DNA from: an uncultured Sphingomonas sp.
Lineage (GTDB): Bacteria > Pseudomonadota > Alphaproteobacteria > Sphingomonadales > Sphingomonadaceae
Reading direction: 5' to 3'
NCBI RefSeq assembly: GCF_913777625.1
Contig: NZ_CAJYTI010000003.1
Location: 62,001-126,000, forward strand
DNA length: 64,000 nucleotides
In this document: piece after piece, positions 13,886 to 20,768 of the stretch
How the letters are laid out: each line of letters starts with the position of its first letter
Numbering within the stretch: position 1 is the stretch's first letter
The notes under the pieces: model-generated
What the model saw: only the letters and a program-made list of their open reading frames with translations
Database searches by the model: none
Told to the model about the DNA's origin: nothing
Position numbers and translations under genes: made by a program

Positions 13886-13984
13886 CACTTGCAGCACAAG
13901 CCTGTGCGATGCAGAAAGATCGGGCCTTTCAGGCATCCTCTCCTAAGACTTTCAAAGGCCGTCCTCCGGGGCGGCCTTTTTTTT
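13886..13984 (+). ncRNA. Candidate small RNA ending in an intrinsic terminator
   Basis: No open reading frame explains this stretch, yet it ends in a strong plus-strand intrinsic terminator (13954-13984). No plus-strand gene lies upstream between 2961 and this point, so the terminator appears to belong to a short transcript that starts in the 150 bases before it. It contains the unpaired pyrimidine-rich run CATCCTCTCCTAAG just before the hairpin, which would suit an mRNA-pairing seed. The 5' end is only estimated; promoter elements here are weak. Confidence 0.35.
13954..13984 (+). terminator. Strong intrinsic terminator
   Basis: The arms AAAGGCCG and CGGCCTTT enclose a 10-base loop and are followed by a run of Ts on the plus strand. 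In the other direction only three Us would follow, so it works best for plus-strand transcription, although it could also help end the prepilin peptidase transcript that stops at 14005. Confidence 0.8.
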
Positions 13985-14004
13985 CGCCTACCGCCGACGG
14001 CGGA

Positions 14005-14817: not shown

Positions 14818-15055
14818 CGTCACGCGGCGGCCGCTTGCGGATCGGATAACGATAGACGCCGAACGGATCGATGCGGAACAGCACCGGCTTCCGGCTCCAC
14901 AAGGGCATGTCGGCGGTGATCCGGCAGAGGCGGGATCCCGCGAACAGCACCACGCCCCAGACGGTCGGCCGCCGCCCGCGATCGAGCGAACCAAGGAAGG
15001 CCGCAATCGTCCCGCTGATCGAGGCGCCCCATTTGCGAAGATCGAGAAGGTGCAC
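14818..15055 (-). pseudogene. Possible small gene with a disrupted 3' end, upstream of prepilin peptidase
   Basis: From a GTG at 15055, preceded by AGGAAGGG, one minus-strand frame reads about 78 residues with high G/C at third codon positions and a natural-looking composition (for example GVVLFAGSRLCRI and RIDPFGVYRYPIRKR). The frame then runs without a stop into the prepilin peptidase gene, where it is clearly non-coding. A stop in the neighbouring frame (TGA at 14820-14822) stands just before the peptidase ATG. This looks like a small coupled gene that lost its frame near the end. I do not recognise the family. The rest of the gap up to 15145 holds only the thiolase leader and its ribosome site. 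Confidence 0.3.
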
Positions 15056-15145
15056 GCACGATGCCCTTCCTGCGGGAGTGCGATGGCTTTTGCAAACCGG
15101 GCGCTGGCCCCCTAGATCCCCGGCAAACACCCGAGAGGAGCCTTT

Positions 15146-16333
15146 ATGTCCGCCGATCCTATCGTGATCCTGTCCTATGCCCGCACGCCGATGGGCAGCT
15201 TCCAGGGCAGCCTCGCCGATGCTTCCGCCACCGATCTGGGCGCCACTGCCGTCGGCGCCGCGGTCGAGCGCGCCGGGCTGAAGGGCGAGGCCATCGAGCG
15301 CATCTATATGGGCTGCGTGCTGCCCGCCGGGCTCGGCCAGGCCCCCGCCCGCCAGGCCGCGCTCAAGGCAGGGCTACCGCAGCACATCGAGGCGACGACG
15401 ATCAACAAGATGTGCGGATCGGGCATGCAGGCGACGATCATGGCGGCCGAGGCGCTGGCCGCCGGTTCGGTCGACCTGCTGATCGCCGGCGGCATGGAGA
15501 GCATGACCAATGCGCCCTACCTGTCGATGCGCCACCGCAGTGGCGCGCGGATCGGTCACGACGTTCTCAAGGACCACATGTTCCTCGACGGGCTGGAAGA
15601 TGCCTATGAACCCGGCCGCCTGATGGGCAGCTTCGCCGAGGAGACCGCGAAGGAATATCAGTTCACCCGCGAGGCGCAGGACGCCTTCGCCATCGCCAGC
15701 CTGGAGCGGGCCAAGGCTGCCCAAACCAGCGGCGCGTTCGATCGCGAGATCGTTCCCGTCGAGCTCCAGGGCCGAAAGGGGGTGACGACGGTGTCGCTCG
15801 ACGAGCAGCCGACCAAGGCCGATCCGGCGAAGATCCCGACGCTCAAGCCGGCCTTCGCCAAGGACGGCACGATCACCGCCGCCAATGCCTCGTCGATCTC
15901 GGACGGTGCGGCGGCGCTGGTGCTGGCACGCGCTTCGGTTGCCGAGAAGCTGGGCCTTACGCCGATCGCCCGGATCGTCAGCCACGCGGCCCACGCCCAT
16001 GCGCCCGCGCGCTTTACCACTGCGCCGGTGTTCGCGATGCGCAAGGCGCTGGAGAAAGCGGGCTGGGAGACCGGCGACGTCGACCTGTTCGAGGTCAACG
16101 AAGCCTTTGCCTGCGTGACGATGATCGCGATGCAGGAGCTCGGCCTCAGCCATGATGCGGTGAACATCCACGGCGGCGCATGCGCGCTGGGCCACCCGAT
16201 CGGCGCGAGCGGCGCGCGGGTACTGGCGACGCTGCTCTCGGCACTGGAGACCAGGGGGCAGAAGCGCGGGCTGGCCTCGCTGTGCATCGGCGGCGGGGAA
16301 GCAACCGCCGTGGCGGTGGAACTGATGGATTGA
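15146..16333 (+). CDS. Acetyl-CoA C-acetyltransferase (thiolase II)
   Basis: This 395-residue thiolase carries the full active site: nucleophile Cys90 in NKMCGSGMQ, His350 in GHPIGASG and Cys380 in LCIGGG. Biosynthetic thiolases condense two acetyl-CoA to acetoacetyl-CoA; the same fold also works in degradation. GAGAGGAG lies before the ATG. It stands alone, divergent from the prepilin peptidase and convergent with the SH3 gene. The window gives no polyhydroxyalkanoate or mevalonate partner, so the pathway cannot be fixed. Confidence 0.95.
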   Translation: MSADPIVILSYARTPMGSFQGSLADASATDLGATAVGAAVERAGLKGEAIERIYMGCVLPAGLGQAPARQAALKAGLPQHIEATTINKMCGSGMQATIMAAEALAAGSVDLLIAGGMESMTNAPYLSMRHRSGARIGHDVLKDHMFLDGLEDAYEPGRLMGSFAEETAKEYQFTREAQDAFAIASLERAKAAQTSGAFDREIVPVELQGRKGVTTVSLDEQPTKADPAKIPTLKPAFAKDGTITAANASSISDGAAALVLARASVAEKLGLTPIARIVSHAAHAHAPARFTTAPVFAMRKALEKAGWETGDVDLFEVNEAFACVTMIAMQELGLSHDAVNIHGGACALGHPIGASGARVLATLLSALETRGQKRGLASLCIGGGEATAVAVELMD

Positions 16334-16343
16334 AGCGAACTAT

Positions 16344-16451
16344 AGCCCCTCCCCTTCAGGGGAGGGGTTTGGGGTGGGGCAGTGTCTCACAGAGACCAAT
16401 TTCTGGTCTGGAATATCTCCACCCACCCCCCTTCTCCAAGGAGAAGGGGCT
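16344..16451. repeat. 108-bp palindromic repeat element, copy A
   Basis: The element begins AGCCCCT and ends AGGGGCT. It contains a 5' hairpin CCCCTCCCCTTCAGGGGAGGGG-type (arms CCCCTCCCC region), a central TCTC..AGAGA dyad, and a 3' hairpin CCTTCTCC-AA-GGAGAAGG. A second copy of identical length lies at 18032-18139. This copy fills the junction between the convergent thiolase and SH3 genes, where it could act as a bidirectional terminator. Confidence 0.85.
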
Positions 16452-16463
16452 TAGAGACGAGGA

Positions 16464-16946
16464 TTACCGCACTGTCTCGCCGGGATCGGTTCCCCAGATC
16501 CGTGCCTGCTCGACATAGCCCGCCCGCCCGCCGGCATCGAACCAGCACCAGCCGCCGCTGCAGGCGCTGATCTTGCCGACCACACCCGGCGCCGCACGCC
16601 AGCTGATGTGCGAATCCCTCGACGGGCCGCTGTGCAGTTCGGCCACGCCGCCGGCAACGATCGCGGTGCGCTTGTCCTCGAGCAGATTGGCCTGCATCCA
16701 GCCCTCGGCGCCGTCGGGATCGCGCACCTTCAGCCAGGCGCCGTAGCTCGCGATCACCTTCAGCGGCAGGCTGCGGCGCTGATAGAACCAGTTGGTGGGA
16801 TAGTTGCGTCCCGGCCCGGTGCGCATCCGCGCCTTGCTCGCCTTCAAGCTGGCATAATAAGGCGGCTTGCGCTCGGCATATGCGGGGGTAGCCAGCGCGA
16901 CGAGCGCCAGGGCCGAAAGTCCGATCGAGAAACGCCACTGCTGCAT
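16464..16946 (-). CDS. Secreted protein with two bacterial SH3 modules
   Basis: This 160-residue protein has a signal peptide ending at PAYA, then two consecutive SH3-type modules: one starting near ASKARMRTGPGRNYP and one near VAELHSGPSRDSHI. Bacterial SH3 (SH3_4) modules usually bind peptidoglycan or other wall parts in the periplasm. It has no catalytic domain, so it is probably a structural or regulatory binding protein. The ATG at 16946 is the one that gives the signal peptide. It faces the thiolase across repeat copy A and is divergent from the dehydrogenase gene. Confidence 0.85.
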   Translation of the reverse strand: MQQWRFSIGLSALALVALATPAYAERKPPYYASLKASKARMRTGPGRNYPTNWFYQRRSLPLKVIASYGAWLKVRDPDGAEGWMQANLLEDKRTAIVAGGVAELHSGPSRDSHISWRAAPGVVGKISACSGGWCWFDAGGRAGYVEQARIWGTDPGETVR

Positions 16947-17019
16947 GGGTCGTCTATCGGCCAGCACGCGCCACGCTTCAACCGTTGACTGCGCCCCCGC
17001 CACCCGCCAAGCCGGTGTC

Positions 17020-18018
17020 ATGGCCGATCCCAAGCGACCGTCCCGCCCCCGGGTGCTCATCACCCGCGCGCTGCCCCAGGCCAGCGAAGCGCGGATGGCG
17101 GAGCTGTTCGACTCGATTCCCAATCCGGGCGATTCGCCGATGGAGGCCGCCACGCTGGCGGCTGCCATGGCCGACGCCGATGTGCTCGTTCCCACCGTCA
17201 CCGATCGGATCACCGCCGACCTGCTCGCCGCCGCACCCGATCGACTGCGGCTGATCGCCAACTATGGCGCCGGCGTCGGCCATATCGATCTGAAGGCGGC
17301 GCGCGCACGCGGCATCATCGTCACCAACACGCCCGGCGTGCTGACCGACGACACCGCCGACATGGCGATGGCGCTGATCCTCGCGGTGCCGCGTCGGCTG
17401 GTGGAGGGCGACAAGCTGGTCCGCTCGGGAGACTGGCGCGGCTGGAGCCCGACCAGCATGCGCGGGCACCGGATCGGCGGGCGCAAGCTCGGCATCCTCG
17501 GCATGGGGCGGATCGGCCAGGCGGTGGCGCAGCGCGCCCGCGCCTTCGGACTGCAGATCCATTATCACGGCCGGCACCGGGTGCACGAGGTGCTCGAGCA
17601 CCAGCTGGGGGCTACCTATCACGAGGATCTCGATGCCATGCTCGAGGCGATCGACATCCTGACGATCCACACGCCCCACACCGCAACCACCAGTGGGCTG
17701 ATCGACGCACGGCGGCTCGACCTGCTCGGACCCGACGGTTGGCTGATCAACACCGCGCGCGGCGAGATCGTCAATCCCGAGGCGCTGGTAGCGGCGCTAA
17801 AGGACCGTCGCATCGCCGGCGCGGGCCTCGACGTCTATGTCGACGAGCCCAAGGTCGATCCGCGACTGATGGCGCTGGAGAATGTCGTGCTGCTGCCACA
17901 CCTCGGCTCGGCAACCTTCGAGGCGCGCGAGGCCATGGGAATGAAGGTGATCGCCAATATCCGCAGCTGGGCCGATGGGCATCGCCCGCCGGATCAGGTG
18001 TTCGAGGGGTGGCTTTGA
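17020..18018 (+). CDS. D-2-hydroxyacid dehydrogenase, glyoxylate/hydroxypyruvate reductase type
   Basis: This 332-residue NAD(P)-dependent dehydrogenase has the cofactor-binding motif GILGMGRIGQAVA and the catalytic Arg in NTARGEIV, Glu in DVYVDEPK and His in LLPHLGSAT. The segment ANYGAGVGHIDL and the NTPGVLTDDTADMA block match glyoxylate reductases. It likely reduces glyoxylate or hydroxypyruvate, which would link to malate synthase G in the same window. The ATG at 17020 is chosen because upstream residues are unlike the family; a GTG just before it is also possible. Repeat copy B follows its stop. Confidence 0.9.
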   Translation: MADPKRPSRPRVLITRALPQASEARMAELFDSIPNPGDSPMEAATLAAAMADADVLVPTVTDRITADLLAAAPDRLRLIANYGAGVGHIDLKAARARGIIVTNTPGVLTDDTADMAMALILAVPRRLVEGDKLVRSGDWRGWSPTSMRGHRIGGRKLGILGMGRIGQAVAQRARAFGLQIHYHGRHRVHEVLEHQLGATYHEDLDAMLEAIDILTIHTPHTATTSGLIDARRLDLLGPDGWLINTARGEIVNPEALVAALKDRRIAGAGLDVYVDEPKVDPRLMALENVVLLPHLGSATFEAREAMGMKVIANIRSWADGHRPPDQVFEGWL

Positions 18019-18031
18019 AATTCTGCACTTA

Positions 18032-18139
18032 AGCCCCTCCCCTTCAGGGGAGGGGTTGCGGGTTGGGCTGTGTCTCGCAGAGCCCAACAGGCGTTCTGGA
18101 ATCCCTCCACCCCAACCCCTCCTCCAAGGAGGAGGGGCT
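18032..18139. repeat. 108-bp palindromic repeat element, copy B
   Basis: This copy has the same termini and length as copy A. Its 3' hairpin reads CCTCCTCC-AA-GGAGGAGG, so both arms differ from copy A by matched changes that keep the stem paired. It also lies between two convergent genes (dehydrogenase and flavin oxidoreductase). Confidence 0.85.
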
Positions 18140-18151
18140 AAAAAGTGTCCA

Positions 18152-19555
18152 TCAATCCCCGGTCAGGATCCGATCGACCAGCTGCTTCACCGTCGGCACG
18201 AACCCGTTCGAATAGAAGGGATCGCGCTTGAAGTTGTACGCGGCGTGCCCCGCGAACATCAGGTTCTGGTCGGTATCGCCGCCATGGGCGATGTCCTGCA
18301 GCGTCTTTTGAATGCAGAAGCTGCGCGGATCGGCCAGGCGACCGGTCGAGTTGGTCTCCGTATCCGCCCAGGACGAGAACTGGCACTGGCTGAGGCAGCC
18401 CATGCAGTCGGCCTGGTCCTTGCGGATGATCTGCTGGTCCTCGCTCGTCACGAACACCAGCGTGTTGTCCGGCGTCTTGAGCGCGCTGGTGAAGCCGAGG
18501 CCATACCATTCGCGTGCGCGCAGCAGATCGTTGCGCGTCACCCAGAAATTCTTGCCCTTCACCCCCACGTCGAGCTGGAAGGTGTGATCCCCCGCCGCCT
18601 CGGTCGAATAGGGGATCTGGCGCTCGCTGCGCGCTTCCAGGTGGCGGAGGAACGGGTTGCGCACCGCGCTGGAATAGAAGCCGGTCGGCGAGAAGCGGTG
18701 CAGCAGCACATCGCCTTCCTCGATCTCCATCAGCTTGGCCTTCCACCCCTCGGGGATCGGGCTTTCCTGCGTCAGCAGCGGCCGGGTGCCGAACTGGAAG
18801 GCGATCGCGCCCAGCTCGGGATTGTCGATCCAGTCGTTCCAGTCGCGCAGGTACCAGACGCCGCCGGCCATCACGATCGGCACGCTGTCCGGCAGGCCGC
18901 CTTCGCGCATCACATCGCGCAGCGCCTTGACGCGCGGATAGGGATCCTGCGGGGCGCGCGGGTCCTCGGCATTGGACAGGCCGTTATGGCCGCCGGCGAG
19001 CCAGGGGTCCTCATAGACCACCGCTGCCAGCCATTCCTGCGCCTTCGAATATGCCCGCTTCCACAGCGCGCGGAAGGCGCGGCCGGAACTGACGATCGGC
19101 AGGTAGCTCACCTCGTGGTGCGCGGCGATCTCGCTCAGCTTGTAGGGCATGCCGGCGCCGCAGGTGACACCGGCCACCATGCCCTTGGTGCGCTCCAGCA
19201 CGCCCTGCAGCACGCGCTGCGCGCCGCCCATTTCCCAGAGCACGTTGATGTTGATCGCGCCCTTGCCGCCGGCGATCTCGAAGGCGCGCTTTACCTGCTG
19301 GACGGCGCCTTCGATCGCGTACTGGATCAGCTCTTCATGACGCTCGCGGCGCGTGAGGGCACGGTAGATCTGCGGAATGATCTTGCCATCCGCGTCATAG
19401 CTGTCGGCGTTGACCGCGCTGACCGTGCCGATGCCGCCGGCGGCGGCCCAGGCCCCCGCGCTCGCATGGTTGGTCGCTGCGACGCCCTTCCCACCCTCGA
19501 CCAGCGGCCATACTTCACGACCGTTGTAGTTGATGGGCGAAAGACCCTTGAACAC
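18152..19555 (-). CDS. NAD(P)H-dependent flavin oxidoreductase / nitronate monooxygenase-like, with C-terminal Cys cluster
   Basis: This 467-residue TIM-barrel flavoprotein resembles 2-nitropropane dioxygenase-type proteins, with the ATNHASAGAWAAAGGIGT N-terminal motif and phosphate-binding segments GVTCGAGMP and VMAGGVWYL. It is longer than simple nitronate monooxygenases. Near the C-terminus four cysteines (384, 387, 391 and 414) form a C-x2-C-x3-C-x22-C pattern that could hold an iron-sulphur cluster. The GTG at 19555 is preceded by GGAGG and starts directly at the barrel; a start at 19684 would add 43 unlikely residues. The physiological substrate is unknown. Confidence 0.85.
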   Translation of the reverse strand: MFKGLSPINYNGREVWPLVEGGKGVAATNHASAGAWAAAGGIGTVSAVNADSYDADGKIIPQIYRALTRRERHEELIQYAIEGAVQQVKRAFEIAGGKGAININVLWEMGGAQRVLQGVLERTKGMVAGVTCGAGMPYKLSEIAAHHEVSYLPIVSSGRAFRALWKRAYSKAQEWLAAVVYEDPWLAGGHNGLSNAEDPRAPQDPYPRVKALRDVMREGGLPDSVPIVMAGGVWYLRDWNDWIDNPELGAIAFQFGTRPLLTQESPIPEGWKAKLMEIEEGDVLLHRFSPTGFYSSAVRNPFLRHLEARSERQIPYSTEAAGDHTFQLDVGVKGKNFWVTRNDLLRAREWYGLGFTSALKTPDNTLVFVTSEDQQIIRKDQADCMGCLSQCQFSSWADTETNSTGRLADPRSFCIQKTLQDIAHGGDTDQNLMFAGHAAYNFKRDPFYSNGFVPTVKQLVDRILTGD

Positions 19556-19634
19556 ATTGCCTCCACAAAAATTGCCGCGCGACGCTAGCCGGATCGGCCG
19601 CAACAAGCGAGTAACAAATGGTACCGGCGCGGTC

Positions 19635-20768
19635 TCAGCCCAGCACGCCCGGCCGACCCATCGCCTGGGCGTAGAGCCGCGCATAGGCCGCGACCATCTC
19701 GGCCTCGTCGTACAACGCGACAGCGCGCAGGCGGTTCGCCTCGCCTACCCGCTTCCGCTCGTCGGGATATTGCGCGAGCAGATCCAGCCGATCCCGCAGC
19801 GACACCTCGGTCCTGTCAGCCGAGAGATATCGCCGATTGGGCTCTGATACCATCGCCGCAATATCCCCTACCTGGGGAGCTATTACGGGAAGCCCGGCGG
19901 CCATCGCCTCCAGGACGGAAACCGGCGCCTGCTCGCTCTTCGACGAGAGCGCGAACAGGTCGAACAGCCCCAGATAGCGATGCGGATTGGCGACGAAGCC
20001 GGGCAGGAATACCTGGTCCTCCACCGCCATCGCCTCGGCCTGATCGAGGATCGCCTGGCGTTCGGGCCCCTCGCCCAGGATCACAAGCTTGAAGCGCGAG
20101 GACATGCCGGCGACGGCGCGGACCAGCATCGGCAGGTCCTTGACCGGCCGGAGGCCTGCCAGACAGCCGATGAACACCTCGCCCTTCCGACGCTTCTCCA
20201 GCATCGGCAGGAGCGAAGGATCGATCTGGCCGGTGTAACGGGCCGTCGGCACGCCGTTGGCGATCCGCACCAGCCGCTCGGCCGGCTGCTTCCAGAACTT
20301 GGTCGCGACCTGTTCGAGCTTTTCCGAGGGCACCACCAGCGCGTTCGCGGCCGGCAGCGCCATGCGGCGATACATGTTGCGGACGGTGCTCAGCTTCTCC
20401 GCCTCGTCGGCGTTGAACCCGTCCTCGTGATGGATGATCGGCGGCAGGCCCTTGCCGAACACCCGCGCTGCCATCACCCCGTCGATCGCCCCCCAGTTAT
20501 AGGTGAGCACCAGGTCGAACCGCCGCATGAACCGCGCGATCTGCTCGTAGCGCTTGACCGAAGGCTTGCCGGTGAGCGGCGGCGGATCAAGCGCGATCTC
20601 GTACTTGATGCCGCGGTCGATCGCCTCGCGGGCGCCGAGCTGGTCGGGCATCGCCGAGACGATGGTGTGCCGCGCGCGGTCGCCGAACGCGTTCATCAGC
20701 TGCACTGCCCGCGCTTCCTTGCCGCCGAGCGCGAAGGTGGAATGTAGATGGAGGATGTGGATCGACAT
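19635..20768 (-). CDS. Glycosyltransferase family 4
   Basis: This 377-residue GT-B fold enzyme has an N-terminal acceptor domain opening with HLHSTFALGGKE and a C-terminal donor domain with the conserved E-x7-E motif in SEQAPVSVLEAMAAGLPV. GT4 enzymes transfer sugars from nucleotide donors, typically to lipid carriers, lipopolysaccharide or exopolysaccharide. No polysaccharide cluster surrounds it, so the product is unknown. It lies upstream of the flavin oxidoreductase and 12 bases downstream of the hydrolase gene on the same strand, suggesting a three-gene transcript. Confidence 0.9.
   Translation of the reverse strand: MSIHILHLHSTFALGGKEARAVQLMNAFGDRARHTIVSAMPDQLGAREAIDRGIKYEIALDPPPLTGKPSVKRYEQIARFMRRFDLVLTYNWGAIDGVMAARVFGKGLPPIIHHEDGFNADEAEKLSTVRNMYRRMALPAANALVVPSEKLEQVATKFWKQPAERLVRIANGVPTARYTGQIDPSLLPMLEKRRKGEVFIGCLAGLRPVKDLPMLVRAVAGMSSRFKLVILGEGPERQAILDQAEAMAVEDQVFLPGFVANPHRYLGLFDLFALSSKSEQAPVSVLEAMAAGLPVIAPQVGDIAAMVSEPNRRYLSADRTEVSLRDRLDLLAQYPDERKRVGEANRLRAVALYDEAEMVAAYARLYAQAMGRPGVLG

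Follow-up and report, generated by a model that had tools for sequence, protein, structure and literature searches.

REPINs, described in Pseudomonas and E. coli, consist of two inverted REP hairpins with a short and diverse spacer between them, are about 100 bp long and lie dispersed between genes, with solo hairpins as remnants and with tandem arrays; they are recognised by a RAYT gene (Y1_Tnp) in the genome and by a GTAG-type foot at the hairpin. The CGTC-tagged REPs of alphaproteobacteria (S. wittichii and others) are not linked to a transposase, form inverted head-head dimers and occupy gene-end sites (PMC3733652); their marks are an unpaired terminal CGTC, TGTC or CCTC tag, a CCA tail and an AT-starting stem of 8-9 bp. 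In S. wittichii the CGTC-1 REPs are placed near ORF ends, at less than 20 bp where the junction is convergent (PMC3733652), and intragenic REPs and Rickettsia palindromic elements (RPE), the latter inserted in frame in unrelated genes, are already known within repair and tRNA synthetase genes. Correia repeat enclosed elements of Neisseria are short, palindromic and MITE-like, and according to a work cited in PMC10969869 those of Neisseria gonorrhoeae can be inverted at their site. The question of gene conversion as a route of REP spread and evolution has been raised at least since the 1988 review of Higgins et al., as cited in PMC3733652. The family described here is a new one of REP/REPIN-like palindromic repeats which carry neither the defining tags nor a transposase, and its turnover in place is unusual. 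No description of the family turned up when the literature outside subscription journals was searched for its sequence, its name and its host.

The window analysed is a 64-kb stretch of Sphingomonas DNA in which the first-pass annotation had pointed out two 108-bp copies of a palindromic element, both between convergent genes. Coordinates, length, end sequences and the convergent setting were all borne out: the copies are 82% identical and both have the 5' end AGCCCCTCCCCTTCAGGGGAGGGG and the 3' end GGGGCT. A paired arm change in the 3' hairpin, also noticed at that stage, is real, the arms being CCTTCTCC/GGAGAAGG in copy 1 and CCTCCTCC/GGAGGAGG in copy 2. The features are as follows.

15146..16333, + strand: thiolase gene, converges on copy 1 (Pfam PF00108/PF02803; stop at 16333)
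16344..16451, + strand: copy 1 of the element (J1), flanked by the convergent thiolase and SH3-domain genes
16345..16368, + strand: terminal hairpin H1 of copy 1, GCCCCTCCCC-TTCA-GGGGAGGGGT, from the fold
16359..16379, + strand: G-quadruplex motif in copy 1, GGGG-A-GGGG-TTT-GGGG-T-GGGG
16428..16449, + strand: terminal hairpin H5 of copy 1, which carries the paired change, CCCCTTCTCCAAGGAGAAGGGG, from sequence and fold
16464..16946, - strand: bacterial SH3-domain protein gene, converges on copy 1 (Pfam PF06347; stop at 16464)
17053..18018, + strand: D-2-hydroxyacid dehydrogenase gene, converges on copy 2 (Pfam PF02826/PF00389; stop at 18018)
18032..18139, + strand: copy 2 of the element (J2), flanked by the convergent 2-hydroxyacid dehydrogenase and nitronate monooxygenase-like genes
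18034..18055, + strand: terminal hairpin H1 of copy 2, CCCCTCCCC-TTCA-GGGGAGGGG
18071..18083 (approximate), + strand: core hairpin H3 region of copy 2, GTCTC-GCA-GAGCC
18116..18137, + strand: terminal hairpin H5 of copy 2, CCCCTCCTCCAAGGAGGAGGGG
18152..19684, - strand: nitronate monooxygenase-like gene, converges on copy 2 (Pfam PF03060; stop at 18152)

The element had been supposed to be a mobile one, and a search of the genome and its relatives confirmed a dispersed family of well over two copies. About 30 family copies, some 25 of them full or nearly full length, are found in this genome, and the element is present in 29 of the 61 genomes searched (this genome and 60 relatives), all of them Sphingomonas except for one weak case (G038) from another family; it occurs in the majority of the 36 congeners. 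Exact core matches come from Sphingomonas azotifigens, S. trueperi, S. pituitosa, S. pokkalii, S. liriopis and several further strains. Relatives of the element are carried by S. parapaucimobilis plasmids, all plasmid matches being from Sphingomonas, and a phage search gave no match. The family is dispersed and old.

Each copy is built of a terminal hairpin, a short core with a hairpin of its own and an inverted terminal hairpin, the core thus being flanked by a pair of strong hairpins in inverted orientation (AGCCCCTCCCC-TTCA-GGGGAGGGG with its partner). The consensus reads YYTA-AGCCCCTCCCC-TTCA-GGGGAGGGG-TT-GGGGTGGGG-C-N-GT-GTCTC-ACC-GAGAC-CAAC-NNNN-GTTCTGG-AATCCCTCCACCCC-AA-CCCCTCCTCC-NN-GGAGGAGGGGCT-TARR, with the flank consensus YYTA-AGCCCC, and an inverted terminal sequence is common to both ends (AGCCCCTCC / GGAGGGGCT). 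Copies from other congeners often have the CCCCTCCCC type at both ends, and their core is different. A long form, seen at thirteen loci (L021, L023, L025, L132, L138, L139, L153, L184, L189, L195, L198, L200 and L228), has a three-way junction of about 60 nt within the first hairpin; its inner arms covary (GGCGCTGC/GCAGCGCC, GGCCATGCC/GGCATGGCC, GGCACTGC/GCAGTGCC) and are found in either order (e.g. L023 vs L025). The element end bears a G-quadruplex motif of the form GGGG-A-GGGG-TT-GGGG-T-GGGG. It is present in 84 of the 116 clade copies and in 41 of the 45 from the genus, whereas this genome keeps the strict motif in just 10 of 25 copies; the motif of copy 1 is the sole match to its pattern in the window. 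Two side observations concern neighbouring repeats: in congener G022 the element stands in tandem arrays with units of about 190-240 bp (L095, L096), and in the right flank of L009 a second C/G-rich palindromic repeat (CCTCCCCC...GGGGGAGG) adjoins it.

Set beside the described systems, the element has the paired inverted hairpins, short variable spacer, size, intergenic dispersal, solo hairpins and arrays (here in G022) of a REPIN, but there is no RAYT gene in the genome and no GTAG foot at the hairpins, and orientation-random replacement at orthologous sites, which is seen here, was not found described for REPINs. It resembles the CGTC-tagged REPs in lacking transposase linkage, in its inverted arrangement and in its sites; in contrast to them it has no CGTC-type tag, CCA tail or 8-9 bp AT-starting stem, its C-rich stems measure 9-10 bp and its core is longer. 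Correia elements are similarly short and palindromic, whereas flipped copies here carry another core and show no target-site duplication, and the duplication typical of DDE-transposase MITEs is likewise missing, with a direct repeat of at least 3 nt at 0 of 46 junctions. With RPEs there is a likeness in placement, two copies being inserted in frame in unrelated genes (mutL and ileS), although copies here are mostly intergenic and stand beside stop codons. The marks of an intrinsic terminator and of an Rfam family are both absent.

Copies are situated mostly between convergent genes or 3' of the upstream gene in a co-directional pair, some lie in frame within genes, and the intergenic ones avoid divergent junctions. 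Convergent junctions hold 15 of 28 intergenic copies of this genome and 44 of 95 intergenic clade copies, against 11 of 49 window junctions (p = 0.006 and p = 0.004, respectively), a reference that contains the two elements themselves. Copies begin about 10 nt 3' of stop codons: of 48 co-directional cases, 42 have no more than 12 nt between the upstream stop codon and the aligned element, and the distances on the start side are broadly spread. Dimers of the CGTC type in the examined loci lie 14-228 nt from stop codons, with 0 of 19 distances at or below 12 nt, but this small control should not be over-read, since S. wittichii CGTC-1 REPs are themselves found near ORF ends; closeness to the stop codon is not unique to this Sphingomonas family (PMC3733652). 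The median starting distance of ordinary 3' hairpins in these genomes is 19 nt, and most of them have no T tract. Of the copies in co-directional pairs 17 were sense and 31 antisense to transcription, a bias that was not significant per junction, and pairing between the flanks outside the element did not exceed that in shuffled sequences.

The behaviour of the family at orthologous sites is the central result. When 96 elements of ten genomes were grouped into 31 orthologous junctions, 17 of the 31 were of mixed orientation at nearly the same position. Ten other junctions and the two of the window were traced in sister species (the ten in TDK1 and S. pituitosa), and their occupants were mixed too: an element in the same orientation, an opposite one, a solo hairpin, a CGTC REP dimer or another hairpin. 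At the copy 1 site the orientation is the same in S. azotifigens and opposite in NFR04, S2M10 and S. trueperi; at the copy 2 site it is the same in S2M10, TDK1 and S. trueperi, opposite in NFR04 and S. azotifigens, and S. pituitosa has a solo hairpin. In L129 and L130, orthologs of the L010 site, a CGTC-type REP dimer stands where this genome has the element. Parsimony on a tree built from flank identities (about 10% divergence) requires at least 20 flips at 29 sites, compared with 24.2 +/- 2.8 under fully random orientation, and the position relative to the stop codon is preserved through flips (median difference 2 nt). Shared occupancy reaches about 60% of examined sister alleles as against about 1% expected by chance, the latter value following from about 30 copies among several thousand gene ends. 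With tens of copies per genome random insertion is insufficient for such sharing, so the common ancestor already had an occupant at most of the sites; since then the occupant has often been replaced in place, in either orientation.

Two of the sites are within genes. The in-frame mutL copy (L014:1501-1607, in this genome C16:29803-29909) runs antisense to the gene in this genome and in TDK1, and S. azotifigens, S2M10 and NFR04 have it in the sense direction; the flanking codons are unchanged between orientations and the frame is open both ways. The in-frame ileS copy is at L022:1501-1607 (in this genome C15:58259-58365), and its site in congeners (L255-L284) holds this family in several, unrelated palindromes including a CGTC-type dimer in others, and nothing in others still, which makes it look like an insertion hot spot.

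Both window copies fold strongly (z = -4.5 and -3.6 on the two strands of copy 1, -5.6 and -4.8 for copy 2), and none of 200 shuffled sequences was as stable. The first-pass annotation had read the paired arm change as a sign of selection for a folded form, and of this the strong folds stand, whereas family-wide covariation is weak. Among 24 copies of this genome there are 4 double-changed pair cells versus about 40 unpaired ones (the latter including some alignment slips); 2 of the 4 are a whole hairpin swapped (L022, L030), and the change in the window is a single double-changed pair which does not recur. The 45 genus copies show 15 double-changed cells where shuffles give 3.8, and 8 of the 15 are one C-G to U-A pair type that may be inherited. 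Compensation in the stems exists but is thin, and inferring selection on the fold from one pair is too strong. Better evidence for structure is that the loops are nearly saturated (1.0-1.9 bits) while the stems stay at 0.12-0.32 bits, conservation being judged on this genome's copies and the genus set; the named loci were left out of the estimate because the pattern by which they were picked determines some of the core. Constraint acts on the sequence of the stems, which is conserved, and not on pairing alone. A structured RNA or bidirectional terminator selected for pairing, as the first-pass annotation preferred, and moved by ordinary rearrangement only would account for the folds, the contrast of stems and loops, the excess at convergent junctions and the double-changed cells of the genus copies, but it is rather unlikely: stem sequence is kept as well as pairing, the double changes are mostly of one pair type, U-tracts and Rfam matches above threshold are lacking, and orientation turnover is left unexplained. 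The arm change taken by itself could have another origin, compatible with the explanation favoured below. Quasipalindrome correction, in which a template switch between arms alters both without selection, occurs in perfect palindromes, and as a known process it is a tentative candidate for the single event in the window copy; alone, it cannot hold stems several times less variable than loops.

How flips arise is best judged from the cores. At variable columns identity was 0.624 for same-orientation orthologs, 0.541 for flipped orthologs and 0.535 for non-orthologous copies from the same species pairs (permutation p = 0.0004; p = 0.008 when stratified by species pair). As ortholog pairs are non-independent, a bootstrap over junctions was used, which gave intervals of 0.022 to 0.138 for same minus flipped and -0.039 to 0.056 for flipped minus background. 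With the hypervariable tetranucleotide loop excluded the values were 0.715, 0.611 and 0.612 (same, flipped, unrelated), and in the well-sampled pair of this genome and TDK1 they were 0.773 for the same orientation and 0.536 for flipped. Flipped copies are no closer than unrelated ones and same-orientation orthologs are closer, therefore the flips are not plain inversions. Simple inversion in place through the terminal inverted repeats (by template switch or recombination), on record for Correia elements and suggested by the repeats themselves and by the long-form inner arms in either order, should have retained the core, and it was rejected by this comparison as very unlikely. Repeated independent insertion, in which a transposase-moved element would re-hit the same tolerated sites behind stop codons, or solo hairpins, in either orientation, is in agreement with the different palindrome families and empty alleles at ileS and mutL, and at 9 sites where TDK1 or S. 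pituitosa has no element another hairpin is found instead. This explanation is nevertheless unlikely in view of the shared occupancy, and neither target-site duplications nor an autonomous element with the same ends (among family matches in this genome) nor a RAYT/IS200 gene (Y1_Tnp, PF01797; no match in this genome or in 20 of 22 other congeners) were found; the hairpin excess at element-free sites was not significant under a strict rule (6/9 vs 64/171, p = 0.08). A further possibility is a self-contained conversion cassette, in which the terminal G-quadruplex would start recombination that copies in any dispersed copy in random orientation, the family persisting transposase-free by conversion and capture. 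The pilE G4 of Neisseria gonorrhoeae starts recombination, and a G-quadruplex at the element end might possibly trigger replacement here, but the cassette as a whole is quite improbable.

The preferred explanation, to which a probability of roughly 0.6 is given, is a REPIN-like family whose copies are replaced in place, in random orientation and without a dedicated transposase, their hairpins being tolerated or useful at gene ends. Under this replacement model a palindrome would suffer a break or a stalled fork, and repair would copy another dispersed copy into the broken site; the donor could be copied in either direction owing to the inverted terminal sequence at both ends. Ectopic conversion or template switching between copies would be the simplest reading of the process. 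With about 0.7 flips per site across a sampled tree of roughly 0.15 substitutions per site, the rate would on this rough estimate be of the same order as that of neutral point mutation and would need no special enzyme. Copies that are nearly identical (95% or more over 44 variable columns) are in weak excess within genomes, at 1.26% versus 0.62% between them (p = 0.026), which agrees with copying between copies. Mean copy similarity, in turn, is equal within and between genomes, and this lack of strong homogenisation counts against conversion, as it fits only if each copy was replaced about once; for no single replacement is the donor identified with certainty. Homology-driven conversion cannot explain the unrelated palindrome families at ileS, thus true insertion or capture must take place as well and would be needed in addition for swaps between such families.

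As for a role at gene ends, no GC-rich hairpin followed by a T tract was found within 15000-19800, and the missing U-tract makes a canonical intrinsic terminator unlikely. Rfam gave no match above the gathering score at the elements, only microRNA-like chance matches; elsewhere in the window a suhB / mmgR small RNA scored above it at 13917-13992 (+). A terminator role at both window junctions is plausible, and placement behind stop codons, strong hairpins and stem constraint fit an mRNA 3'-end structure, which may limit read-through (with Rho) or block 3' exonucleases and so protect the mRNA. Hairpins tolerated or useful as such structures would leave stems conserved and allow loops to drift.

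The case also cautions that, where a palindrome is mobile, compensated changes are a weak argument for a functional RNA. Conversion, inversion and re-insertion can be distinguished by counting in this family, which has many orthologous sites, a hypervariable core, an orientation that can be read and no RAYT in the genome, and through the in-frame sites of mutL and ileS a repair gene and a tRNA synthetase gene are involved in the turnover. It is the orientation-random turnover in place which is worth pursuing; the element is of no new kind, but its turnover gives the well-known REP-type repeats a new twist.
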